A DNA stretch of 64,000 bases from the NCBI RefSeq assembly GCF_029767755.1, contig NZ_JARUQS010000001.1, positions 620,001 to 684,000 of the forward strand, read 5' to 3'. Every line of letters starts with the position of its first letter. The first letter of the stretch is position 1. Shown here one piece after another: positions 9,739 to 35,701 of this stretch. Source of the stretch: Thiomicrorhabdus sp. zzn3. Lineage in GTDB: Bacteria; Pseudomonadota; Gammaproteobacteria; Thiomicrospirales; Thiomicrospiraceae. Below the pieces are notes generated by a model, which had not been told where the DNA came from, ran no database searches, and saw only the letters and a program-made list of their open reading frames with translations. Both the position numbers and the translations under genes were made by a program.

Positions 9739-12021
9739 ATGTTAGAACAAGTACTATTAACCTCAAAAGGCTATGAATCAGCGGCTGCGGATGCCTCTCT
9801 ACGGCAAAATTTGCCCTCTCGAGGGGGCTTTGCCGAAGTCTTTGGAAGTGCCGTTAATGATCAGGAAGGCGGCGCGCCGGGATTTTTAGCAGGCCTGGTC
9901 AAAAAAACATGGTCGGAAAGCGGGAGCCCCGTTGGGCTTTCGGCGGCGTCGCTCGCCCATGTAAATGTCGGTGCACTCGCCGAAGACAGTGGGGTTGATG
10001 GAAAAGTAGCGACGTCCGGGGAGGCTGCACAAAAAGAAGCAGGTATTTTTCCGTTCTTAGCGTTTAAGGAGGGGCTGCCTTCGGAATCGGAAGTGGTTGC
10101 ACCGATTGATGCGGATGCCACTTTCCCCTCCCTAGGCGTGCAAGAGGCTTTATCTGAAGGGGGAGAGTCCGCATTATCTGATGAAGCCGTTTCGCTAAGT
10201 GGGGTTGCTCAAGCAGCGCAAAAAGTGGCGGATGTGACGCCGGAGTCTGCAAAAGAACGCGCTCAAGGATTTGTGTTTCATCCTGAGGAACACGAACTGT
10301 CTCTCCATGAATCCGGGCGATCAAGCGATGGGGCAACCTTGAAAGCAGGAGAGCACAGTACGAGTGAAGCAGCTGTCCCTGCATCGTCGATCATGAAAGA
10401 GCATGCAGTGTCTGCGATTGAGCACGCTAGCAGGGTACAACAAGCCTCTAAGAATGATGGATTGAGTGCAGTAAAACAAGAGCAGCCTAATCACGTGGAT
10501 ATATTGCGCTCACCGAAACGAAATATAGGAACGGTTGCGGAACAGTCAAAAGTAGCACATCTTTATGCAGATGATGAAGTGACGCAATTTGTAAGAGCTC
10601 GTTCTGATATTGAAGATTTGAAAGGGTTGCAAGACGCTTCTGCTTCTGAAGAGGCGTCAACACTTCGATCGACCGTGACAGGTTTGCCATTGAATCATTG
10701 CCGTGCTGACGATCAGACTGGTGAAAACACCGTTGCTTCTGAGAATGCGCCACAATGGTTCCGCAGTGAAAATCAAAAGCATGCTTTTCTCAATAAGAGT
10801 GAATTGCCGTCTATAGAAAAGTCCGCAGCAATCCAAGCCCTTGCTTCAGGGGAAGAGGAGATGGGTGAAGCGGCACTTGCTGAAGTCAAAATGCTGGGGC
10901 AGGTAACCCCGATGCCTGCTGGTAGAGTCGGGGCTGCTCTGGTAGAATCCGACGGCTCTGAAAATGCAGATGGCTTGGGGATTGTCGCTAAAGACGAGCT
11001 GGAGGGTAGTCTCGAGACTACCGAAGTGACTTTGCAAGCAGATGCCGCCGGTAGCCCTGAGCTGGTGAAGACAGAGTTGGATGCTTCTGCCGAGCAAAGA
11101 CGTGAGGTGGTTGGCGAGTTCATGGAAAACGCTCCACAGGATGATGCGGTCCTTGCCTCTGCTTTTGGCGCGTCTGAGCACACGGCTGTTAAACAGGAAG
11201 CGAAGCCGGATATGACTTCAATGCGTATTAATCTATCTCAGGATGGTGCGGGGAATTCTCACCAGGCCAATAATAGAAGCGCATTAGGTGGCGATTCTGG
11301 GCAAAGTGGAATGAATTCGTCCGGGCAGGGACAGCAGCAGTCAGGACAGCAAAATCAAGGACAAGCCACTCAGCAGCAGTTTATGCAGATGGCACAGACG
11401 ATGGCTCAAAATGTACAAACGGTGCGCCAGCAGAATCTACAACAGAATATTGAGCGAATTGCTACCCAAAACCCGAACGTAGACATGACCGTCTTAGCCT
11501 CCGATACAGAGACGACTTCTGATTTAGATATGCTGCATACCACTGTGTCATCGGACAGACGAGGCCAATTGCCTCAAGGGTTGCAGAGTATCGGTTTGCC
11601 GGTCAACCATGCTCGGTGGGGTAACTCATTTGGTCAAAGAGTGGTCTATATGGCCAATAACCAAATTCAGCAGGCGCAAATTACCTTGAACCCTGAAAAG
11701 TTGGGGCCTGTGCAGATTAAACTACATGTCGACAGAGATCAGCAGGTCCATGTGGTAATGAGTGCTCATCACGGTTCTACGCGAGAAGCGATTGAGCTCG
11801 CAATGCCGAGGCTGCGTGAAATGATGGAGCAGGCAGGCGTTGATCTTGGATCCGTGGATGTGAGTGATCAAAGAGAATTTGCTGAAAATATGAATGGAGA
11901 GGATGAGACGTCCCAACAACAAGGAAGCAACCCTTCTACTGCAGAATTGGGGATGGAGGCCTCTAATGAAGCCGACGTTACGACTCATACTACCGATAAT
12001 CTCGTCGACTTTTACGCCTAG
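9739..12021 (+). CDS. fliK: Flagellar hook-length control protein FliK
   Basis: Secreted molecular ruler that measures the hook and then switches FlhB export specificity. At 760 residues it is long. The first 600 residues are low-complexity, acidic and Ser/Ala/Glu-rich, with a Gln-rich stretch near 530-570. The conserved C-terminal hook domain is at about residues 627-715 (QAQITLNPEKLGPVQIKLHV). The acidic N-terminal part resembles no defined domain; length variation there is usual for FliK. The chemoreceptor gene starts 9 bases later. Confidence 0.92.
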   Translation: MLEQVLLTSKGYESAAADASLRQNLPSRGGFAEVFGSAVNDQEGGAPGFLAGLVKKTWSESGSPVGLSAASLAHVNVGALAEDSGVDGKVATSGEAAQKEAGIFPFLAFKEGLPSESEVVAPIDADATFPSLGVQEALSEGGESALSDEAVSLSGVAQAAQKVADVTPESAKERAQGFVFHPEEHELSLHESGRSSDGATLKAGEHSTSEAAVPASSIMKEHAVSAIEHASRVQQASKNDGLSAVKQEQPNHVDILRSPKRNIGTVAEQSKVAHLYADDEVTQFVRARSDIEDLKGLQDASASEEASTLRSTVTGLPLNHCRADDQTGENTVASENAPQWFRSENQKHAFLNKSELPSIEKSAAIQALASGEEEMGEAALAEVKMLGQVTPMPAGRVGAALVESDGSENADGLGIVAKDELEGSLETTEVTLQADAAGSPELVKTELDASAEQRREVVGEFMENAPQDDAVLASAFGASEHTAVKQEAKPDMTSMRINLSQDGAGNSHQANNRSALGGDSGQSGMNSSGQGQQQSGQQNQGQATQQQFMQMAQTMAQNVQTVRQQNLQQNIERIATQNPNVDMTVLASDTETTSDLDMLHTTVSSDRRGQLPQGLQSIGLPVNHARWGNSFGQRVVYMANNQIQQAQITLNPEKLGPVQIKLHVDRDQQVHVVMSAHHGSTREAIELAMPRLREMMEQAGVDLGSVDVSDQREFAENMNGEDETSQQQGSNPSTAELGMEASNEADVTTHTTDNLVDFYA

Positions 12022-19338: not shown

Positions 19339-20472
19339 ATGGCTGAAAACGAAGACGGTACAGAAAAATCCGAAGAACCCACCGAGAAAAAGCGGCGAGA
19401 GGCCAGGGAAAAAGGCCAGATACCGCGTTCTAGGGAGTTGACAACCTTACTGTTAACGCTCTCTGCGGCCTTCTTTTTACTGTTTTATGGTGGGCAAATG
19501 CTATTGGAGGTTCAGGCGATCGCGATCAAAGGGTTGAGCTTTGATCGTGATCATGCGTTTGATCTACTAAAAATGTGGGAGCTGATTCAAAGCATGTTGC
19601 TCGCTTCCATTTATATGGTATTGCCATTTATGCTGTTGATGGCGTTTATCGCTATTGTTTCTCCTTTGTTGCTTGGTGGCTGGGCCTTCAGTGCTAAAGC
19701 AATGGCTCCCAAGCTCAGTAAGTTGAATCCAGTTTCTGGCATCAAGCGAATGTTTTCGTTTAAAGCGTTGTTGGAACTGGTGAAAGCATTGGCCAAATTT
19801 ACGTTGGTGATTGCGATTGCAACTGTGTTCTTATATATGGTGTTTGCCGAGCTTTTGGGCTTGGGGGCAGAACCTCTTAAACAAGCCTTGGCACATGCCG
19901 GTACCTTGATTATTCAAGCGTTTATTTTTGTAAGCCTTTCCTTAATTATTGTTGCAATGATTGATGTGCCATTTCAGTTATGGGACCACAATCGACAATT
20001 AAAAATGACTAAGCAAGAAGTCAAAGAGGAGTTTAAACAACAGGAAGGTAATCCGGAGGTTAAAGGCCGTATTCGCCAGGTTCAGCGCGAGATGTCACAA
20101 AGCCGTATGATGCAAAATGTTCCACAAGCGGATGTGATTGTCACCAATCCGACCCATTTTGCAGTGGCTTTGAAATACGATGCGGAAAGCATGCAAGAAC
20201 CGGTTGTATTGGCGATGGGAGCCGATTTTATGGCCAGTCAGATTCGCACCATCGCTCGGGAGCATGATATTCCGATTATTGAAGCACCACCACTGGCCCG
20301 TGCGTTATACTATAATGCGGAAGTGGAAAGACCAATTCCGTACGAGTTATTTAAAGCGGTCGCAGCTGTACTGGCTTACGTCTATCAATTAAAATCTGGC
20401 GGCCGAGTAACGGATACAAACTTTAAAGATTTACCGATTCCGGAAGAGATGCAAGCCGAGTCGAGTGAATAA
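19339..20472 (+). CDS. flhB: Flagellar export switch protein FlhB
   Basis: Controls the change from rod/hook to filament export. Four membrane helices are followed by the cytoplasmic domain with the self-cleavage motif NPTH (VIVTNPTHFAVALKY, about residue 271). Charged N-terminus SEEPTEKKRREAREKGQIPRS is the family hallmark. A partial paralogue of the post-cleavage part is encoded at 29305-29583 on the other strand. Confidence 0.96.
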   Translation: MAENEDGTEKSEEPTEKKRREAREKGQIPRSRELTTLLLTLSAAFFLLFYGGQMLLEVQAIAIKGLSFDRDHAFDLLKMWELIQSMLLASIYMVLPFMLLMAFIAIVSPLLLGGWAFSAKAMAPKLSKLNPVSGIKRMFSFKALLELVKALAKFTLVIAIATVFLYMVFAELLGLGAEPLKQALAHAGTLIIQAFIFVSLSLIIVAMIDVPFQLWDHNRQLKMTKQEVKEEFKQQEGNPEVKGRIRQVQREMSQSRMMQNVPQADVIVTNPTHFAVALKYDAESMQEPVVLAMGADFMASQIRTIAREHDIPIIEAPPLARALYYNAEVERPIPYELFKAVAAVLAYVYQLKSGGRVTDTNFKDLPIPEEMQAESSE

Positions 20473-26698: not shown

Positions 26699-28678
26699 GT
26701 GGATGAGGATATTTTACAGGATTTTTTGGTAGAAGCGACCGAACTGGTTGATCAACTGAATGAGCAGTTGGTTGATCTGGAGCAGGCGCCAAGTGATCGA
26801 GATTTATTGAACGCGGTTTTTCGTGGTTTTCACACCATTAAGGGGGGGGCTGGATTCCTCGGTATTACTCCCTTGATTGAGGTCTGCCATCGAGCGGAAA
26901 ACGTGTTTGATAAAATCCGTAATGGCGACGTGGAATATGATGCCGTTGTGGCCGATGTAATTTTGAGAGCATTTGATGTGATTAGTGATTCCATCGAACA
27001 ACTGAACAGCGGAGCCAGAGACCTGCCTGAAAATGACCAGGGCTTGTTGCAGGAGCTGGATGCGATTACCAAAGGTCAGGCGGTACAAGAAGTTGAAACA
27101 CAAGCAGATAATGCAGCCACAATGACAACGGATATTAAACTGGAACTTCCAGAGGGGGTTGATCCTGATGGTGAGATTTCGGATGACGAATTTGAAGCGT
27201 TGTTGAATCAAAGAGATATGCTTTCTGAAGCATCGTCCTCTTCCCCGCAAATTCCTGAAGAACCTAAATTAGAGTTGCCGGAAGGGGTCGATCCAGATGG
27301 AGAGATTACCGATGATGAGTTCGAGGCCTTACTTAATCAAAGAGATTTAATGGATTTTGCACAGGTTGATGAAACGCTTTCAATGCCTGAGCCTGCTTCT
27401 GAACCGGTGCCACAGGCAAAACCTGCCGATACAAAACCTGCCGCTCCTAAGGAGTCTGCACCGAAGCCCTCGGTCGCTCCTGCGGGTCCTGCTAAAGCGT
27501 CCAGTAAAAATACAGCCGAATCAACGGTTCGTGTCGATACTCGTCGTCTTGATGAAATTATGAACCTGGTAGGTGAGCTGGTGCTGGTGCGCAACCGCTT
27601 GCTCACGTTGAGAACCACTCAGGGAAGCAGTGAAGAGTTATCGAATGCGGTAGCCAATTTGGATCATGTTACTACAGACCTGCAAACTTCTGTCATGAAA
27701 ACCCGGATGCAACCGGTTAAAAAGGTATTCGGGCGTTTTCCACGGGTGGTACGTGATTTGGCACGTAAGCTTGGTAAGGAAATTGATCTTGAGCTGGTCG
27801 GTGAAGATACTGATTTAGACAAAAACCTGGTGGAAGCTCTAGCCGATCCTTTGGTGCATTTGGTCCGTAACTCGGTTGACCATGGTATTGAGATGCCACA
27901 AGATCGAATTGCTGCCGGCAAGCCAGAAAAAGGCACGGTCATTTTAGCGGCTCAGCAAGAAGGGGATCATATTCTGTTGTCGATTACTGATGACGGTAAG
28001 GGGATGGATCCTGATGTACTGCGTCGCAAGGCGGTGGAAAAAGGCTTAATGGATGAGATGACGGCGAATCAGCTGGATGATAAAGCCGCCTTTGAATTGA
28101 TTATGTCGGCCGGTTTTTCTACAGCGGAGCAGATCAGTGATATCTCAGGGCGTGGCGTTGGGATGGACGTGGTCAAAAGCATGATTACCAAGCTGAACGG
28201 CAGTATTGATATCCACTCCGTGTTGGGAGAGGGGACTCGCATGAGTATTCGAGTTCCTTTGACATTGGCGATTTTGCCAACCTTAATGGTGGCTTTTGAT
28301 GAAGATAATTACGCCATTCCTTTAACCAGTGTCCAGGAAATCTTTGATTACGAATCCGATAAGATCAATATGATTGACGGGCAAATGATGGTCAGATTAA
28401 GAGAGAAAAGTATTCCACTGTACTTTTTATCAGAGTGGTTAGCGCCTGAAAAAGTCAAAGAGGATTATGATGGCGACAAGGTCGTCATCGTATCGATTGG
28501 CAATCAGCGTGCTGGTTTAGTGGTTGAACAGGTAAACGGTCAGGAAGAAGTGGTTATTAAGCCTCTGGGCATGATGCTTAAGAAAATTTCTGGCTATGCT
28601 GGTGCCACGATTACCGGCAACGGCAGTATTGCGTTGATTTTAGATTTACCTGGTGTTATCCAGCGTTTTCAGTATTAA
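26699..28678 (+). CDS. cheA: Chemotaxis histidine kinase CheA
   Basis: Kinase that phosphorylates CheY and CheB. The Hpt domain carries the His of FHTIKGGAGFLG (about residue 46). Instead of a recognisable P2 domain, residues about 146-216 contain two near-identical copies of an acidic motif (LPEGVDPDGEISDDEFEALL), separated by about 17 residues, then a Pro/Ala linker. Dimerisation domain, ATPase (LVHLVRNSVDHGIE, DDGKGMD, GRGVGMDVV) and CheW-like P5 domain follow. GTG start behind GAGGTATAGG. Confidence 0.95.
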   Translation: MDEDILQDFLVEATELVDQLNEQLVDLEQAPSDRDLLNAVFRGFHTIKGGAGFLGITPLIEVCHRAENVFDKIRNGDVEYDAVVADVILRAFDVISDSIEQLNSGARDLPENDQGLLQELDAITKGQAVQEVETQADNAATMTTDIKLELPEGVDPDGEISDDEFEALLNQRDMLSEASSSSPQIPEEPKLELPEGVDPDGEITDDEFEALLNQRDLMDFAQVDETLSMPEPASEPVPQAKPADTKPAAPKESAPKPSVAPAGPAKASSKNTAESTVRVDTRRLDEIMNLVGELVLVRNRLLTLRTTQGSSEELSNAVANLDHVTTDLQTSVMKTRMQPVKKVFGRFPRVVRDLARKLGKEIDLELVGEDTDLDKNLVEALADPLVHLVRNSVDHGIEMPQDRIAAGKPEKGTVILAAQQEGDHILLSITDDGKGMDPDVLRRKAVEKGLMDEMTANQLDDKAAFELIMSAGFSTAEQISDISGRGVGMDVVKSMITKLNGSIDIHSVLGEGTRMSIRVPLTLAILPTLMVAFDEDNYAIPLTSVQEIFDYESDKINMIDGQMMVRLREKSIPLYFLSEWLAPEKVKEDYDGDKVVIVSIGNQRAGLVVEQVNGQEEVVIKPLGMMLKKISGYAGATITGNGSIALILDLPGVIQRFQY

Positions 28679-28696
28679 TGGAGAGGTTTATAAACG

Positions 28697-29197
28697 ATGG
28701 AATTACAAACAGCCTTACCTGAAAATAGCGGCTTAGCAACCGGGTTGGAAGAGGATTCAACCTATATCGGGCCGAGTGCGCGTTGTGTGCTCTTTACCTT
28801 GCAAGATGAAATTTACGGCATTTATGTTAAAAAAATTCGTGAAGTGCTGCGTGTAGGAACGATTCGTAAGGTAGCCGGGACGCCGCCACATGTGTTGGGA
28901 GTTATTAATGTCCGTGGTGTGATTGTCACGGTGGTTGATACACGCACCATTTATGGAATGCCGAGCAAGCCGGTAACGGATCTATCGCGCATTATTATTG
29001 TTGAGTTGGATGATGAACAGACCGTGGGCATGATGGTGGATTTCGTGATGGAGGTAAAAGACATTCCAGAAAGTAAATTTGAACCGCTGTCATCGACAAA
29101 AGAGAATGCATCCCGCTACATTCAGGGAATTGCGCACTATCAGGATAATGTGATCATTTTGATCGACGTGGACAATATGCTTATGAACTTTGAGTAG
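28697..29197 (+). CDS. cheW: CheW-like coupling protein
   Basis: Single CheW domain of 166 residues (CVLFTLQDEIYGIYVKKIRE, VLGVINVRGVIVTVVDTRTI). It connects receptors to CheA. A roughly 25-residue N-terminal extension precedes the domain. It follows cheA by 18 bases and closes the plus-strand operon before a bidirectional terminator. A second CheW is encoded at 30392-30916. Confidence 0.9.
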   Translation: MELQTALPENSGLATGLEEDSTYIGPSARCVLFTLQDEIYGIYVKKIREVLRVGTIRKVAGTPPHVLGVINVRGVIVTVVDTRTIYGMPSKPVTDLSRIIIVELDDEQTVGMMVDFVMEVKDIPESKFEPLSSTKENASRYIQGIAHYQDNVIILIDVDNMLMNFE

Positions 29198-29304: not shown

Positions 29305-29583
29305 TTAATCTGGCTTTTCAACAGGCCACTTTTCGCTTATTTGGAATGCAAAAGCAAGTACCTGGGCGACCGCTTCATACAGCACTTCAGGAATTTCCTG
29401 GTTCAATTCAACTTGGCTTAACAGTTCGGTTAGCTGGGGGTCTTGCTTAATAGGGATTTGATACTCTTCTGCCAGAGCAAGGATTTGTTCAGCGATGTGG
29501 CCGGAGCCTTTCGCAGTCACAATCGGCGCGCCTTCCCCTTCGTATTGGAGGGAAACGGCAACCTTTTCATCAAGACGAGGCAT
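29305..29583 (-). CDS. Stand-alone FlhB C-terminal domain homologue
   Basis: A 92-residue protein that aligns with FlhB only from just after the NPTH cleavage site (VAVSLQYEGEGAPIVTAKGS, then LALAEEYQIPIKQDPQLTEL, and YEAVAQVLAFAFQISE). It lacks the membrane helices and the NPTH motif. Such proteins (FhlB/EscU-like small proteins) can substitute for or compete with the FlhB C-domain in export switching. Last gene of the minus-strand operon; starts about 22 bases after the STAS gene. Confidence 0.85.
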   Translation of the reverse strand: MPRLDEKVAVSLQYEGEGAPIVTAKGSGHIAEQILALAEEYQIPIKQDPQLTELLSQVELNQEIPEVLYEAVAQVLAFAFQISEKWPVEKPD

Positions 29584-29605
29584 GTTTCATGCAGGTTGAA
29601 AGTAA

Positions 29606-29881
29606 TTAAGCTAATTTTAGCGCTTCACTCAGCCCAATATTGTTGGCCGACGTCATAAACAGCTCATTGGTGTTTTGCCAGCTGATAGAGCGCTGGTTGC
29701 TTTCTGCTGTGCGAATCAGCATGAGCAATGACTGCAATCCACTAGTATCAATGGTTTCCACTGCACCGGCGTCGAAGACGATCTCTTCTCCCGTCTCCTG
29801 AATTTTTTGGTTAAGTTCGGCATAGGAGTCGTTGATGGTATGAATGGTAAGATTTTCAGGAAGGTTGATGATATCTGCCAT
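29606..29881 (-). CDS. STAS-domain protein
   Basis: A 91-residue STAS (anti-sigma-antagonist-like) domain with the segment VETIDTSGLQSLLMLIRTA, including the Ser that is phosphorylated in SpoIIAA-type proteins. STAS proteins of this size occur beside CheW/CheA genes, where they may modulate signalling. No partner kinase is evident here, so the role is open. Confidence 0.8.
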   Translation of the reverse strand: MADIINLPENLTIHTINDSYAELNQKIQETGEEIVFDAGAVETIDTSGLQSLLMLIRTAESNQRSISWQNTNELFMTSANNIGLSEALKLA

Positions 29882-29952
29882 GAGGATTACCTTTGAGAAG
29901 ATCGAGTTTCAGCCTAGCCAATAGCAATGTGACCAGGCCTGTTAGAAACGGG

Positions 29953-30312
29953 TTAAAGGACTCGGTTGATGACCGAAAGCAGTTTTTCCGGGCTGAATGG
30001 TTTAACAATCCAGCCGGTCGCACCCGCTTCTTTCCCTTTCGTTTTCATGTCGCCAGACGATTCAGTTGTCAAACATAAAATCGGTGTGAATTTATAATTC
30101 GGCAAAGCACGCAGCGCTGTAATCAACTCTATACCATTCATGTTCGGCATGTTGATATCTGTGACGATTAAATCAAATTGAGCCTGTTTGGCGATGTTCA
30201 ATGCTTCTGCACCGTCTTCCGCTTCCGTGACATCATGTCCCGCTGATTTTAGAGACATACTTACCATTTGACGCATCGACTTAGAGTCGTCTACAGCTAG
30301 AATTTTTGACAT
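29953..30312 (-). CDS. CheY-like single-domain response regulator
   Basis: 119-residue receiver domain (ILAVDDSKSMRQMVSMSLKS, phospho-Asp in VTDINMPNMNG, Thr in LCLTTES, Lys in IVKPFSPEKL). Distinct from the fliA-linked CheY, with INMPNMNG instead of WNMPQMTG. Probably acts as an alternative receiver or a phosphate sink; inferred from context. Confidence 0.9.
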   Translation of the reverse strand: MSKILAVDDSKSMRQMVSMSLKSAGHDVTEAEDGAEALNIAKQAQFDLIVTDINMPNMNGIELITALRALPNYKFTPILCLTTESSGDMKTKGKEAGATGWIVKPFSPEKLLSVINRVL

Positions 30313-30391
30313 TGTTACTCTCTCACACTTTTAAATAACTAAAAATGAAATACTAAAAAATTTAAAAAGGATTGATCTTCAGTGACCAAGA

Positions 30392-30916
30392 TTATTCTGC
30401 ATTTAAGCTTTTCTTAATGGAGGCCAAGATGCCTTCGTTGATCAGTTGATTTACATTAAGAACGACCAACATTTTGTCTCCTACTGTGGCGAGGCCATTG
30501 ACGTAATCGGTATGAATGGTACCGTTCATGTCTGGAGAACCTTGGATTTCAGTCGCGTTGATAGAATAGACGTCGGACACGCCATCTACCACTAGGCCGA
30601 TGATTTTTTGACTGCCCGATTCATCCTCCGCGCGCAGAATGATGACAACGGTGGATTCATTATAGGTAATGTTATCCAGTCCAAAACGAACACGTAGATC
30701 GATAATAGGAACAACCGCTCCACGTAGGTTGATGACGCCCATCACATATTCCGGCGTGTTCGGAATAGCCGTGGTTTTTTCCCAGCCTTTAATTTCTTGA
30801 ACCGTAAGAATATCAACGCCATACTCTTCGCGGCCTAAAATAAAGCTTAGTACTTGGTCATCGTGGTCATTCTTTTGGTTGATCTGTTCTTGAATGTTCT
30901 CAAGATTGGTGTCCAT
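30392..30916 (-). CDS. cheW: Chemotaxis coupling protein CheW
   Basis: CheW domain protein of 174 residues (SFILGREEYGVDILTVQEIK, VMGVINLRGAVVPIIDLRVR, GLVVDGVSDVYSI). More like canonical CheW than the copy after cheA. Starts about 140 bases after the FliK-like gene, long enough for its own promoter, though I could not assign one. Confidence 0.92.
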   Translation of the reverse strand: MDTNLENIQEQINQKNDHDDQVLSFILGREEYGVDILTVQEIKGWEKTTAIPNTPEYVMGVINLRGAVVPIIDLRVRFGLDNITYNESTVVIILRAEDESGSQKIIGLVVDGVSDVYSINATEIQGSPDMNGTIHTDYVNGLATVGDKMLVVLNVNQLINEGILASIKKSLNAE

Positions 30917-31056
30917 TATTTACTCGCTCGAGTTCATTAAACTATAAGGGGTAAAGTACATGATTCGAGCTTAAAGGTCTAGTCTTAAAGAAGGGGAATT
31001 TTCATTTTCTGAATAGGTATCCCCCTATTTTAAAGGAAGATAAGGGAGGTGGTGAT

Positions 31057-32190
31057 TCAGACGCTAATGTCAATGAGGGCGACCTGAGTGGATGTTGTCG
31101 ATGGGGAAGGTTTGAGTTTGGTTGTCTGAACGGTATTGACGCGCAGTCCGAGTTCTTGGAGGCGCTGTGTTAGGCTTGGAATAAAAGGAGCAATCTGGCT
31201 TTCAATTTCCTCTGTTTCATACCAAATGACGCATGTTAGATCACTCATATTCGATTGAAGGCTGAGTTTAAACGCGAGTTCTTGATGGTTTAAGTGCAGG
31301 TTCATCAGTACTTCCCAGACCTCTTCAGAGGAAGATCTGTTTTTATAGAACTTAAGTTGTACCGCGTCTAACCGACTTTCTGGGGGCAGGGGGAGTTCTA
31401 GGTTAAGCATCTGCGGGTTTTCGTATTGCTGCAGCTGCTGAATGGTGATTCGGTTGAGCGCTTGTGAAATAGCTTGCAAAGCCTTTTTCGCAGGGGAGGA
31501 CTCGCCTTTTTCGGCTATTTCGGCGAGTGCCATTTGTTGCAGTTTAAATAGGATCGCTTTCATATCCTTGGTCAGCGAGTTGTTTGTTGCCGTTTGTTGG
31601 GATGAGTTTACACGATGTTCAAAAAACAAGCCGCTGTTAAGCAGAGCGTGTTTAAGCTCTCTGCCGCTTAGACTTGTGGACGGTTTTAATAGCTGTTCCA
31701 CCAGTTGGTTAAGCAGGGATTGGATGGAGGCGGATAGATTCGGTAATTGGTTTAACGTTTGTACCGCCTGATGAATTGGAATTTGTTGTGCAATGTTAAG
31801 TTTATAGGCTGTTTGCAAGATGGGCTGCTGATTGGGTATTGGGCTTTGGTTTGTTTGAGTGGGGGGGCGTAAAGTCAGTACTAATGTGGGTTCAAGTTGT
31901 TTCACCAGTGCCTTAAACGTGCCGGTCAAAGCCGGTGATAATTTATGTTCCGCTACTAGGGTTTGAGTGCCTAGGGTAATTTGTGCCAGATTGCCTTTAA
32001 AGGCATGAATCTGCAAAGTCACTGTCTGACCGACTTGGAGTTTCAGCTCTCCAAGGGTTGGATTGGCTTTTATTTGTAGGCTGTCGAAGTTCAATTGCGG
32101 TATATTATTCATTGCGGTTTTTCGCCTAAATAGGCCAGCTCGATCGGAGAAGGATGACGGTAGCCAAGTTTCTTTCTTACAAACTAACAT
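31057..32190 (-). CDS. FliK C-domain-like hook-length control protein
   Basis: Second protein with a FliK-type C-terminal hook domain (LDAVQLKFYKNRSSSEEVWE, LHLNHQELAFKLSLQSNMSD, LTQRLQELGLRVNTVQTTKL). The N-terminal half is Gln/Leu-rich, including a low-complexity TNQSPIPNQQP stretch. I chose ATG 32190, preceded by AAGGA with 5-base spacing. ATG 32112, starting MNNIPQ, is an alternative nearer the expected protein start. Transcribed divergently from cheR. Its presence in one operon with a stand-alone FlhB C-domain suggests a linked function in export switching. Confidence 0.8.
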   Translation of the reverse strand: MLVCKKETWLPSSFSDRAGLFRRKTAMNNIPQLNFDSLQIKANPTLGELKLQVGQTVTLQIHAFKGNLAQITLGTQTLVAEHKLSPALTGTFKALVKQLEPTLVLTLRPPTQTNQSPIPNQQPILQTAYKLNIAQQIPIHQAVQTLNQLPNLSASIQSLLNQLVEQLLKPSTSLSGRELKHALLNSGLFFEHRVNSSQQTATNNSLTKDMKAILFKLQQMALAEIAEKGESSPAKKALQAISQALNRITIQQLQQYENPQMLNLELPLPPESRLDAVQLKFYKNRSSSEEVWEVLMNLHLNHQELAFKLSLQSNMSDLTCVIWYETEEIESQIAPFIPSLTQRLQELGLRVNTVQTTKLKPSPSTTSTQVALIDISV

Positions 32191-32269: not shown

Positions 32270-33097
32270 ATGAACGAACGAGAGTTTACTTTTACAGACC
32301 AGGATTTTTCCCGGATTAAGAAAATAGTCTATGACTTTGCAGGAATTGATCTAAACGATTCCAAAAAAAACTTGGTTTACAATCGCTTGGCAAAACGCAT
32401 TCGTTTTCTGGAGCTGCAGAGCTTCAAAGAGTACCTGAATTATGTACAGGAGCAAGGTGAAACCGAGTTTGTTAATTTGATTAATGCGGTCACGACAAAT
32501 TTGACGTTTTTCTTTAGAGAAAACCACCATTTTGACTATTTAGCCAACACGGTCATCCCTCTGCTTCTCGAAACGAACAAGGCAAGCAAAAAGATTCGTA
32601 TTTGGTCCGCCGGGTGTTCCACAGGGGAAGAACCGTACTCATTAGCGATTGTTCTCAAAGAATCTGTACCGCAAGGCTGGGACGCTAAGGTCATTGCAAC
32701 GGACCTAGATACGAATGTGGTTGATACGGCAAGAACGGGTATCTATCCTATTGAACGTTTAAAAGGGGTTGATGAAACGCGTAAAAAGCGTTGGTTTTTG
32801 AAGGGAAGTGGAAAGCAAGCAGGCCTGGTCAAAGTCAAGTCTGAGTTACAAACCTGTATTGAGTTTGGTCAAATTAATTTGATGCACGATTGGCCCATAA
32901 ACGATCCGATCGATGTGATTTTTTGTCGTAATGTTGTGATCTATTTTGATAAGCCGACTCAGGCAAGGTTATTTGATCGTTACGCAGACCTCTTGCCTGA
33001 GCATGGACACCTGTTTATTGGTCATTCTGAATCTTTGTACAAAGTGTGTGATCGTTTTGAATTGATTGGACAGACAATTTACCGCAAGGTGCGTTAA
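32270..33097 (+). CDS. cheR: Chemotaxis methyltransferase CheR
   Basis: SAM-dependent glutamate methyltransferase for chemoreceptors. N-terminal helical domain, then the SAM site (RIWSAGCSTGEEPYSLAIVL), VIATDLDTNVVDTA and VIFCRNVVIYFD. Length 275. Followed by cheB 40 bases downstream. Confidence 0.95.
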   Translation: MNEREFTFTDQDFSRIKKIVYDFAGIDLNDSKKNLVYNRLAKRIRFLELQSFKEYLNYVQEQGETEFVNLINAVTTNLTFFFRENHHFDYLANTVIPLLLETNKASKKIRIWSAGCSTGEEPYSLAIVLKESVPQGWDAKVIATDLDTNVVDTARTGIYPIERLKGVDETRKKRWFLKGSGKQAGLVKVKSELQTCIEFGQINLMHDWPINDPIDVIFCRNVVIYFDKPTQARLFDRYADLLPEHGHLFIGHSESLYKVCDRFELIGQTIYRKVR

Positions 33098-33137
33098 AGA
33101 GGATGAACAAGGCAAGTTATAAAGAGTTGAGCATTTT

Positions 33138-34253
33138 ATGAAAAAAATTAAAGTCTTGATCGTCGACGATTCCGCTTTAGTTCGCAAAATGTTGCAAGAG
33201 ATGTTGTCGTCAGATCCGGAATTAGAGGTCGTCGGTACCGCTTCGGATCCTTATATGGCGAGAGAAAAAATTAAAGAGCTCCACCCTGATGTGCTGACCT
33301 TGGATATTGAAATGCCGAGGATGGACGGGGTGACCTTCTTAAAAAATCTGATGCGATTGCATCCACTTCCAGTGGTCATGGTATCGACCTTGACCGAACG
33401 TGGTGCGGACATCACTTTTGAAGCGCTGGAACTGGGGGCCGTGGACTTTGTGACCAAGCCTAAAATTGATTTGGTCAATACCTTCGAGCAATATCAGGCA
33501 GAGATTTGTCGCAAGGTTAAAACGGCGGCGCGGGTTAGTAAAATAATGCTTGAACGCAAATATGCGCGGTATATACAAAATGCGCAAAAGCCTAAAGCCG
33601 CGCAGTCCATCTCAGTGACGGAAAAGTTAAGCGTAGACGCCGTTATTGAGAAAAAGAGTTTTAACCGGCGTCATTTTAAGACCACGGATAAAATTGTGGC
33701 ATTGGGCGCTTCCACCGGAGGGACAGAAGCGATCAAGGAAGTGTTGATGAAATTGCCTGCCAGTGCGCCAGGTATCGTGATTACTCAGCATATTCCAGCG
33801 GCATTCAGCCAGCCGTTTGCACAACGTATGGATTCATTATCCGCAATGACAGTGCTGCAAGCAGAAGATGGACAACAGATATTGCCGGGGCATGTCTATA
33901 TTGCCCCAGGAGATCGTCATTTATTGGTTGAGCGCGATGGTGCAAGATATGTCTGCCGCTTAAATGACGGCCCGCCGGTTAATAGGCATAAACCTTCGGT
34001 AGATGTGATGTTCCGTTCTGTTGTGCAGAATGTCGGTCCGAATGCGATTGGCGTTTTGCTGACGGGGATGGGAGATGACGGTGCGCGAGGGTTGAAGGAA
34101 TTGCAAGGGGTAGACGCGCCTACCATTGCCCAAGATGAGAAGACGAGTGTGGTGTGGGGGATGCCTGGAGAGGCGGTTAAGTTAGGCGCCGCGGATTCCA
34201 TTTTGCCATTGGAGAGTATCGCTCAGAGAATTTTGGACTATGCTGCAAAGTAA
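33138..34253 (+). CDS. cheB: Chemotaxis methylesterase CheB
   Basis: Receiver domain (VLIVDDSALVRKMLQEMLSS; Asp in TLDIEMPRMDG; Lys in VTKPK), a linker of about 50 residues, then the methylesterase domain with catalytic Ser (ALGASTGGTEA), His (TQHIPAAFSQPF) and Asp (LTGMGDDGARG). Also acts as deamidase in the family. Ends at a terminator. Confidence 0.96.
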   Translation: MKKIKVLIVDDSALVRKMLQEMLSSDPELEVVGTASDPYMAREKIKELHPDVLTLDIEMPRMDGVTFLKNLMRLHPLPVVMVSTLTERGADITFEALELGAVDFVTKPKIDLVNTFEQYQAEICRKVKTAARVSKIMLERKYARYIQNAQKPKAAQSISVTEKLSVDAVIEKKSFNRRHFKTTDKIVALGASTGGTEAIKEVLMKLPASAPGIVITQHIPAAFSQPFAQRMDSLSAMTVLQAEDGQQILPGHVYIAPGDRHLLVERDGARYVCRLNDGPPVNRHKPSVDVMFRSVVQNVGPNAIGVLLTGMGDDGARGLKELQGVDAPTIAQDEKTSVVWGMPGEAVKLGAADSILPLESIAQRILDYAAK

Positions 34254-34278
34254 ACGGAGTTAGATCAAACTGGCACAT

Positions 34279-34315
34279 AGCCTGCTTCTGCCTTAGGGCG
34301 GGGCAGGCTTTTTTG
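34279..34315 (+). terminator. Terminator after cheB
   Basis: AGCCTGC pairs with GCAGGCT across a 17-base loop containing a smaller GC-rich fold and is followed by six T. Confidence 0.75.
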
Positions 34316-34465
34316 TAACGGCCTTTTACTCGGTCAAAAAAACTTATCATTAACCAAGTTTTTTAAATGGCTTATAATCCCCCAGTTGAATGACTGCTGG
34401 ATCGCTTGTGGTTCCTCAGTTAACTCGTTGATATTTAGTGCATTATTAGGTAAGGACAGTGCCTC

Positions 34466-35701
34466 ATGCTTCAAGTAATAAAGACGTATTGGATTGCGTG
34501 GCTATTCACCATTCTAGGGGGGATTCTTAGTTTTATCGAGATTCCCTATATTGAACTTCTGAGTATGTTGATCATTTCATTGGTCTGGACACTTCAGGTG
34601 GCAAGAGTTGCCATGCCTGAGCCAAGCGATCAAGAATCCCCTGTTTCGCCTATGCCGCAAGCTGCAGCCAGTCATGCCCTGATTCCTATCACTAAAGTTG
34701 ATGAGTCGTTGAAAAGTGTTGCTGAAGATTTTGACCAGGCTATTGATCATGAATCGGAAGTCATTAAAGAGGAACTGGTTCAGGTTAAAGAATTGATTGC
34801 CGAAGCGATTGAAACTTTGAATAACAGTTTTTCAGATTTGCACGACCAGACGAATGCCGAGTATAAACTGGTACTTTCACTGCTTGAAAACTTGGGCGGT
34901 GACGCAAGTTCCAAGCACATGAGTGTGCAGCGCTTCTCATCTGAAATCAAAGTGGTCTTGCAATATCTGATTGACCTGTTAACGGCAGCCAGTCAGCGTA
35001 GCACTCAGACTGTCGATAAAATCGATGATATGGTTGGACAGATCGAAGCGATCTTTACCCTGTTAGAAGATGTAAAAGGCATTGCCGATCAAACCAATTT
35101 GCTTGCTCTGAATGCGGCGATTGAAGCGGCGCGTGCCGGAGAAGCCGGTCGAGGGTTTGCCGTGGTCGCGGATGAAGTTCGTAAACTGTCATTGAATTCG
35201 AACCAATTGAATGAGCAGATTCGCAAACAAGCTGAAAAAGCGCGAGGCACGGTGGATCAGGTAAGAAGTATTGTCAGTGAAACCGCCAATAAAGACATGG
35301 AGCACGCCGTCTCTTCACAAACAAAAGTGGACGGCATGCTCCATGACTTGGAAGAGATGAATAACGGCATTTCAGAAAACCTTGGAGATGTCTCCGGGAT
35401 TATCTCCGAAATCGAAGTCAGTGTTTCCAACGCCATGCGTTCTTTGCAGTTTGAGGATATTGTCCGTCAGTTGGTGGATCAAGTCATTCATCATCTGGAA
35501 AACCTGAATGAGTTTTCAGATAAGATTAATGCATTTCTTGACGAGAGTCGGACTATTCCGGTCTCTTCCGAAAGTGAGCACCAGGAACGTATCGATCAGT
35601 TAAAAATGGTGGTCGCTCAGCAGCGCCAACATATGGAAGAGTTCCGTATGAAGCGTGTACAAGCGGATAGCATGGAAGAGGGGGATGTCGATCTATTTTA
35701 A
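34466..35701 (+). CDS. Methyl-accepting chemotaxis protein, membrane-anchored
   Basis: 411 residues with two closely spaced membrane helices (about 8-26 and 30-48) and no periplasmic ligand domain. A helical region and the signalling hairpin ([33 protein letters not shown]) follow, and the C-terminal stretch [20 protein letters not shown] is typical of a subgroup found near cheB. No HAMP domain seen. Possible promoter TTAACC-17-TATAAT ends about 95 bases before the ATG. Confidence 0.9.

Follow-up and report, generated by a model that had tools for sequence, protein, structure and literature searches.

The split export-switch copies of Thiomicrorhabdus

The stretch of DNA analysed here, hereafter the window, covers 64,000 nucleotides of Thiomicrorhabdus sp. 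zzn3 (contig NZ_JARUQS010000001.1, positions 620,001 to 684,000) and carries on its minus strand, running from 32112 to 29305, five genes in the order FliK2, CheW2, CheY2, STAS and FlhX. The two outer genes encode partial counterparts of FliK and FlhB, the partners of the flagellar export-specificity switch, and the three inner ones encode proteins of chemosensory type. The locus is flanked by plus-strand genes on both sides, cheA-cheW1 at 26699-29197 and cheR-cheB followed by a gene for a methyl-accepting chemotaxis protein at 32270-35701, and the main flagellar cluster, including canonical FliK and FlhB, lies within the same window. The features are as follows:

31057..32112, minus strand: FliK2, a FliK-C/T3S4 protein of 351 amino acids with an ATG start
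30953..30982, minus strand: promoter-like motif, CTAGAC[CG]TTT-N7-AAT..GTA.TTT, 36 bases ahead of the CheW2 start
30392..30916, minus strand: CheW2, the second CheW (Pfam CheW, E 3.6e-34)
29953..30312, minus strand: CheY2, a single-domain response regulator (Response_reg, E 2e-29)
29606..29881, minus strand: CheS-like single STAS-domain protein (STAS_2, E 5.9e-12)
29305..29583, minus strand: FlhX, 92 amino acids, a free FlhB C-domain starting about at the cleavage point
within 9739..12021, plus strand (context): canonical FliK, ending in NLVDFYA, a tail of the same kind as that of FliK2
19339..20472, plus strand (context): canonical full-length FlhB

Since a full FlhB (19363-20382) and a canonical FliK are both present in the genome, FlhX and FliK2 are second, partial copies, as the initial annotation had read them, and profile and PDB matches bear this out. 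The Bac_export_2 profile (PF01312) matches FlhX with an E value of 1.1e-19 over profile positions 261-334 of 335 only, leaving 1-260 unmatched; the N-terminal transmembrane part of FlhB is missing. When FlhX is aligned to the B chains of cleaved FlhB, the alignment begins at chain residue 4 in 3b1s_B (E 3.4e-13) and at residue 5 in 3b0z_B, and therefore PTH is absent. The initial annotation was also right that the domain lacks NPTH, which is missing from the window FlhX and from all 111 relatives (55 from the class and 56 from the order, with the window's own excluded, after removal of L077|11954, an apparent exception that is a contig-end fragment of a true FlhB). Four residues of Salmonella FlhB, A286, P287, A341 and L344, are named in PMC13344023 as residues of the early-substrate pocket. 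Among the 111 FlhX proteins, the first position is A in 100 and the second P in 110, while the third is A in 84 or V in 25 and the fourth L in 73 or I in 36; 30 aligned FlhX proteins share invariant residues. The TIGR00789 (flhB_rel) model matches the window FlhX at 81.8 bits (E 2.9e-23), below its curated cut-off of 117.35 bits, a value reached in none of the 151 class genomes. The FlhX-type family is presumably FhlB/COG2257. Judged by its sequence, FlhX is the FlhB C-piece as it stands after cleavage.

The start of FliK2 was placed at ATG 32112 because its relatives begin at the same place; the frame is open upstream to TTG 32235. As a single sequence, the window FliK2 matches PF02120 weakly (E 0.0056, under the gathering score of 29.8 bits), a score that both scanned relatives from genus g2 exceed (46.9 and 40.8 bits), and a profile of 42 relatives (A1) finds 2rrl, the solved FliK C-domain, with an E value of 5.3e-9. 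The predicted model, built on 51 sequences with a mean predicted local distance difference test score (pLDDT) of 85.5, consists of an S1/OB-like barrel (residues ~11-85), a helical middle (~93-231), the switch domain (~235-331) and a flexible, low-confidence tail that ends in LIDISV. Its C-domain matches the PscP switch domain (5cuk; Z 6.0, root-mean-square deviation 3.4, 79 residues aligned) and the FliK C-domain (2rrl; Z 5.6, deviation 3.4, 75 aligned), bearing in mind that a structural match with Z below 8 is no proof when standing alone. On the evidence of profile and model, FliK2 is identified as a FliK-type switch protein, a call that becomes firm once the alignment is used instead of the single sequence. 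The barrel occupies positions 31858-32082 of the window, and by eye, most class FliK2 proteins whose N-terminus is complete begin in a similar way. S1/OB-like chains recur in the structure comparison of this N-domain with Z scores of 4-5, too weak for a family name, and Foldseek alone gave no match for it at E 0.001.

The tail is a hydrophobic-Asp feature that was defined here, with no published criterion, by a pattern picked after viewing tails, [LVIM][LVIM]Dxx[AVI] at the extreme C-terminus. It ends 46 of the 54 FliK2 proteins of the order and 37 of the 53 of the class, as well as 11 of 17 canonical FliK proteins, and none of 1809 other open frames of at least 150 amino acids. The 17 canonical tails come from 17 weak hits of the class FliK2 search, the weakest hit of all (G177) lying outside this set, and canonical FliK was told from FliK2 by score (at least 83 bits versus at most 49 bits).

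Linkage of FliK2 and FlhX across bacteria

Within the order, free FlhX is found in 57 of 62 genomes, every one of which has a further match, to FlhB (its frame runs into a contig end in G036), and FlhB without FlhX is seen in two drafts of 84-85% completeness (G016 and G020). FliK2 accompanies FlhX in 55 of the 57, 50 by protein search and five by reading the locus, and in 54 of these 55 the two genes are close together on one contig; in the remaining genome (G029) they are on separate contigs, each at a contig end. The apparent cases of FlhX without FliK2 in genus g2 and in G018 were rejected as artefacts of the single-sequence search: a FliK-C open reading frame (ORF) lies directly upstream in G001-G004 and G018, and a class-only profile detects the FliK2 of g2 at E 2e-21 to 5e-20 and that of G018 at 1e-7. 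At two loci of the order (L040 and L041, from G052 and G060), CheY2-STAS-FlhX directly follows a PhoH gene (PF02562, E 7e-49 in L040).

The linkage on which the initial annotation depended, and which independent occurrence of the two genes would have contradicted, holds in the Gammaproteobacteria sampled. In a class sample of 151 genomes, FlhX is present in 56, a count that takes in a partial (G095) and a degenerate (G204) copy, and a strong FliK2 match in 53, all of which are FlhX-positive; because the sequences behind the FliK2 profile were linked to FlhX, a divergent, unlinked FliK2 could escape it. Among class genomes with an FlhB-family match, Fisher's test for co-occurrence gives 1.8e-17, related genomes not being independent. 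Of the 55 class loci read, 53 have FliK2 as the nearest gene upstream of FlhX. In 50 of these, FliK2 comes within about 25 bases of where the FlhX domain begins, and in 21 there is a 4-base overlap, the latter count resting on start codons chosen in the analysis. The other two comprise a weak FliK2 match (L122, E 0.019) and a degenerate FlhX with no match (L145). A long gap, of ~370 bases, occurs at a single class locus (L114 of G176), which is included in the 53.

Given that the FliK2 profiles were trained in part on the sequences found (26 of the 52 other genomes found are in A1), training was also kept apart. An order-only profile without g2 recovers 51 of the 55 class loci, the two halves of the class set recover each other fully (25/25 and 26/26), and the class-only profile finds, at E 1e-3, 50 of 54 order FliK2 proteins without picking up any further ORF of the order. 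Two loci, L124 (E 1.8e-8) and L105, were detected by the wider profile only, L105 matching PF02120 at 2.3e-16.

Beyond the class, a FliK-C protein lies directly upstream of FlhX in Cupriavidus metallidurans (PF02120, 45.4 bits, over the cut-off) and in Acetoanaerobium noterae of the Bacillota (28.6 bits, just under the cut-off of 29.8). A further scan gave eight loci, with the five-gene order in three Thiomicrorhabdus genomes and one Thiotrichales metagenome-assembled genome and the adjacent pair in three gammaproteobacterial metagenome-assembled genomes; the remaining locus is that of Bacillus ectoiniformans. There, a 655-amino-acid protein directly upstream of FlhX (L175, 2998-4965) was rejected as FliK2 for want of a PF02120 or FliK2-profile match; its start and last residues look FliK2-like by eye. 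In Bacillus subtilis 168 the pair would correspond to ylqG-ylqH, and Thiomicrorhabdus chilensis is a further carrier. A plasmid collection yielded 50 records, and the three places opened held one plain FlhB and two FlhX. Candidate FliK2-FlhX fusions among class open frames of 257-775 amino acids were discarded too, those read being ORFs that overlap FliK2 in another frame, and some others plain FlhB. In G095, a one-contig genome of 100% completeness, FliK2 stands with a partial FlhX and no full FlhB match was found (L146), apparently a leftover from a flagellum that has been lost. The FliK2-FlhX pair is thus widespread and far more general than the Thiomicrorhabdus locus alone.

The inserted signalling genes

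The five-gene order stands on a single contig at 39 loci, counting the window, and is interrupted by contig ends in one further genome, and therefore the arrangement is not a product of chance. The order FliK2-CheW2-CheY2-STAS-FlhX characterizes genera g1, g3 and g7; in genus g6, as well as in G006 and G009 of g3, CheW2 is not part of the block, and in genera g2 and g5 the FliK2-FlhX pair is unsplit. Counted over the 57 FlhX-positive order genomes, CheY2 and STAS are directly upstream of FlhX in 50, including two in which FliK2 was not found (G052 and G060), and CheW2 is within the block in 40, one of them (G029) across a contig break. In the class loci retrieved from outside the Thiomicrorhabdus family, nothing of the CheW, CheY or STAS type was found to separate FliK2 from FlhX, and the insertion is specific to Thiomicrorhabdus and its relatives. 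Adjacency of the two genes probably came first, because it is the arrangement in the other sampled Gammaproteobacteria.

That the five genes form one operon, as initially annotated, is borne out only in part, since FliK2 and CheW2 are separated by a gap of 140 bases that contains the promoter-like motif. The motif, with a single site in the window (30982-30953), occurs in 25 of 40 CheW2 upstream regions, the window included, against a mean of 0.5 and a maximum of 4 in shuffles that keep base composition only, and zero or one time ahead of each remaining gene of the five; it was written after viewing nine of these sequences, so that 25/40 is not an independent count. No minus-strand terminator-like site was found in the gap. 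Ahead of the five genes, patterns of sigma-28 and sigma-54 type occur sporadically, the latter reaching 10/40 before CheW2, and a sigma-70 scan returned fewer sites than in shuffles. Since the motif is conserved 36 bases before cheW2, it suggests that cheW2-cheY2-STAS-flhX is transcribed from a start of its own.

The STAS protein has a D-T-[SA]-G motif in all 19 aligned sequences, and its match is found once per genome, adjoining FlhX, in 50 of the 62 order genomes. Conservation within the locus is unequal, the median identity to the window protein being 92% for CheY2 (49 order relatives), 46% for STAS and 34% for FliK2; the conservation of CheY2 across the order equals that of CheY1 (92% median identity for both).

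A second CheA (CheA2) is encoded at 501-503 kb, next to a CheD gene (PF03975, E 2.4e-25). This second chemosensory cluster (G000:C1:500762-504087; L150, 6763-10088) comprises CheD, CheA2 and a 195-amino-acid protein without a Pfam match, and no CheW, CheR or CheB profile hits were found around CheA2 in the 18 kb fetched. A CheA2 ortholog at least 71% identical is present in 48 of the 50 STAS-positive order genomes, the other two being drafts of 83-85% completeness, and also in the STAS-negative draft G035; the STAS-less genus g2 has a CheA of 53-63% identity. Among the best 29 of 44 non-own class STAS matches, read with flanks of 1.5 kb, a CheY2-type CheY adjoins STAS at 17 loci and CheA as well at 16, and in all 16 this CheA scores better against CheA2 than against CheA1. 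In five of the 29 (L180, L186, L187, L203 and L207), the nearest annotated gene on the upstream side of STAS is canonical fliK, with gaps of up to ~350 bases; CheY and a CheA2-type CheA follow in four, and L207 ends after STAS. There is thus a hint that FliK and CheS-like modules have met more than once.

CheS of Sinorhizobium meliloti is reported in PMC12654446 to bind CheA and to affect phosphate transfer between CheYs. As with CheS, a lone STAS domain is encoded beside a chemotaxis CheY in the window, and the inserted STAS and CheY2 are similar to the CheS-CheY module of a second CheA. The role reported for such a module lies in CheA phosphoryl flow and not in export, which leaves direct control of the switch by chemosensory signals unproven. 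The accessory switch linked to chemosensory signalling that the initial annotation proposed accordingly stands as far as the anatomy of a switch pair goes; its other half holds only locally, the signalling genes being inserted only within the family and g2 and g5 having the pair unsplit, and a functional tie between these genes and the switch is likewise unproven.

Possible roles and relation to known systems

PMC13344023 describes a gate that is kept in early mode by the cleaved FlhB C-piece (FlhB-CCD): without it hook-protein export stops, and once the hook-basal body is complete the piece is lost FliK-dependently at the switch, the last five residues of FliK being proposed to act on it. Against this background, FliK2 and FlhX may constitute a two-gene module, a copy of the proteins that contact each other at the switch. 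Because it has neither the NPTH site nor anything before it, FlhX would be 'cut' from the outset, a soluble stand-in for FlhB-CCD that could dock on the cytoplasmic face of FlhB, replacing or competing with the native piece. Once docked, it would offer the same pocket for rod and hook substrates and thereby hold the gate in, or return it to, early mode. FliK2 would bind FlhX and set whether it is on or off the gate, as either a clearing or a loading partner. In Thiomicrorhabdus and its relatives, in which the bicistron is split, FlhX would probably be read together with CheW2, CheY2 and STAS from the promoter before CheW2.

We put the probability that FliK2-FlhX is a resuppliable FlhB C-piece with a partner acting on it at the gate at roughly 0.45; FlhX has the features required, and FliK2 the acting domain and tail. 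The FlhB C-homologue of Helicobacter pylori was reportedly called a 'spare part' by Wand in 2006, which would fit FlhX as a resuppliable piece. A similar fit may be drawn by analogy from the HrcU C-domain of Xanthomonas, which functions in trans according to PMC3040844.

Several observations weigh against a role at the gate. Relative to FlhB, FlhX has an altered PPLARALY stretch and small deletions, changes that, going by sequence, might block docking, and the predicted barrel of FliK2, at the end where a FliK would carry its ruler and export signal, could mean that this protein is never exported. Among FliK2 proteins, 8 of the 54 from the order and 16 of the 53 from the class do not show the tail pattern; FliK2 was not found in G052 and G060, both of which keep FlhX, CheY2 and STAS. 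Of the 80 class genomes in which an FlhB-family match was found, 24 lack FlhX, and therefore the module is dispensable in many. Salmonella, the source of the borrowed mechanism, is not known to carry FlhX.

Loss of the cleavage site and the PPLARALY stretch while the pocket residues are retained would also suit a protein acting away from the gate, in which case FlhX, lacking the membrane part of FlhB, would serve as a soluble decoy or holdase for early substrates or FliK, with FliK2 as its partner, and would tune supply without docking on FlhB; the close spacing of the pair, in which a 4-base overlap is frequent, suggests that two partners are made in matching amounts. The trans function reported for free C-domains (Helicobacter; Xanthomonas, PMC3040844) is in secretion by the apparatus. 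Off-gate action is a serious but less probable alternative. It is hardly credible that the two genes are functionless, decaying duplicates of fliK and flhB. The weak PF02120 match of the window FliK2, the absence of the pair from 24 of the 80 FlhB-family-positive class genomes and the remnant-like pair of G095, which has no full FlhB, could be so explained, but the co-occurrence (even with related genomes not independent), the adjacency at 53 of 55 loci, the invariant residues of 30 aligned FlhX proteins and the presence of the pair in betaproteobacterial and clostridial genomes speak otherwise.

As to the insertion, there is a near-even chance that CheY2, the CheS-like STAS and CheW2 are ordinary chemotaxis parts, the arm of a phosphate sink, that came to lie between fliK2 and flhX and share at most a transcript with them, which can be combined with either a gate or an off-gate role of the pair. 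STAS, a CheY2-type CheY and a CheA2-like CheA are contiguous at 16 of the best 29 class STAS loci, CheW2 is preceded by a promoter-like motif of its own, and CheY2 is far more conserved than STAS or FliK2; against this, the order is maintained across genera and FlhX stays downstream of STAS even where FliK2 is missing. Alternatively, as in the initial annotation's reading, a CheA2-CheY2-STAS pathway may govern the accessory switch, its signal setting the activity or amount of FlhX: STAS adjoins FlhX in all 50 STAS-positive order genomes, those with changed neighbours or without FliK2 included, nearly all of them (48/50) carry the CheA2 ortholog, and the fliK genes upstream of STAS in 5 of the best 29 class loci are apparently a separate association. 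Such control is nonetheless rather improbable. The pair is unsplit in g2, in g5 and in the fetched class loci, STAS-CheY-CheA modules without an adjoining FlhX are common in the class sample, S. meliloti CheS works with CheA on CheY phosphate flow according to PMC12654446, and chemotaxis and flagellar genes cluster anyway.

In PMC13344023, the flagellar switch is described as irreversible since the FlhB C-piece is lost. A ready-cut C-piece that is widespread and has a FliK-like partner permits a direct test of this one-way switch in its carriers, and where the pair is split, nature offers an experiment in which FliK2 is uncoupled from FlhX. It is a long shot that the pair makes the switch resettable, with FlhX re-docking after FliK has removed the native piece, the hook being repaired or extended and FliK2 then clearing FlhX, and with a CheA2-CheY2-CheS signal deciding on re-arming in Thiomicrorhabdus and its relatives. 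If true, a finished gate could resume export of early substrates, and in these bacteria a chemosensory signal would time the re-arming.

FliK2-FlhX is a known but little-studied pair, and its split order with three signalling genes is a new arrangement. FlhX is counted among flagellar secretion components in PMC9321776 and PMC10746217, and in Nitratiruptor flhX-fliK is written together as a unit (PMC9321776); a search of the literature that excluded most subscription journals turned up no study of what the two proteins do together or of the split arrangement. Compared with FlhB/SctU (PF01312), FlhX shares the homology of the C-domain and the early-substrate pocket residues, but it has neither transmembrane part nor NPTH and its PPLARALY stretch is altered. 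By description, it is like FlhX/HP1575 of Helicobacter pylori in being a stand-alone FlhB C-domain with no membrane part, and differs from that type in scoring under the TIGR00789 cut-off and in having three signalling genes between it and its FliK-like partner. With the FliK/SctP T3S4 proteins (2rrl and PscP, 5cuk), FliK2 has in common the switch-domain homology and, with canonical FliK, the kind of tail, whereas the predicted S1/OB-like barrel and helical middle, the position as a second copy beside canonical FliK and the FlhX partner set it apart. The CheS-CheY1-CheA system of Sinorhizobium and Agrobacterium, likened here by description and not by sequence comparison, also has a single STAS domain beside a CheY, as do other Gammaproteobacteria, there beside CheA too; in the Thiomicrorhabdus locus, by contrast, the second CheA is encoded elsewhere, CheY precedes STAS and FlhX follows. 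Finally, FlhX is the sequence counterpart of the Salmonella FlhB-CCD, which PMC13344023 describes, along with Fluke, as an early-mode lock, and which is removable; FlhX, by contrast, has a gene of its own, so that in principle fresh copies could be supplied once the switch has taken place.

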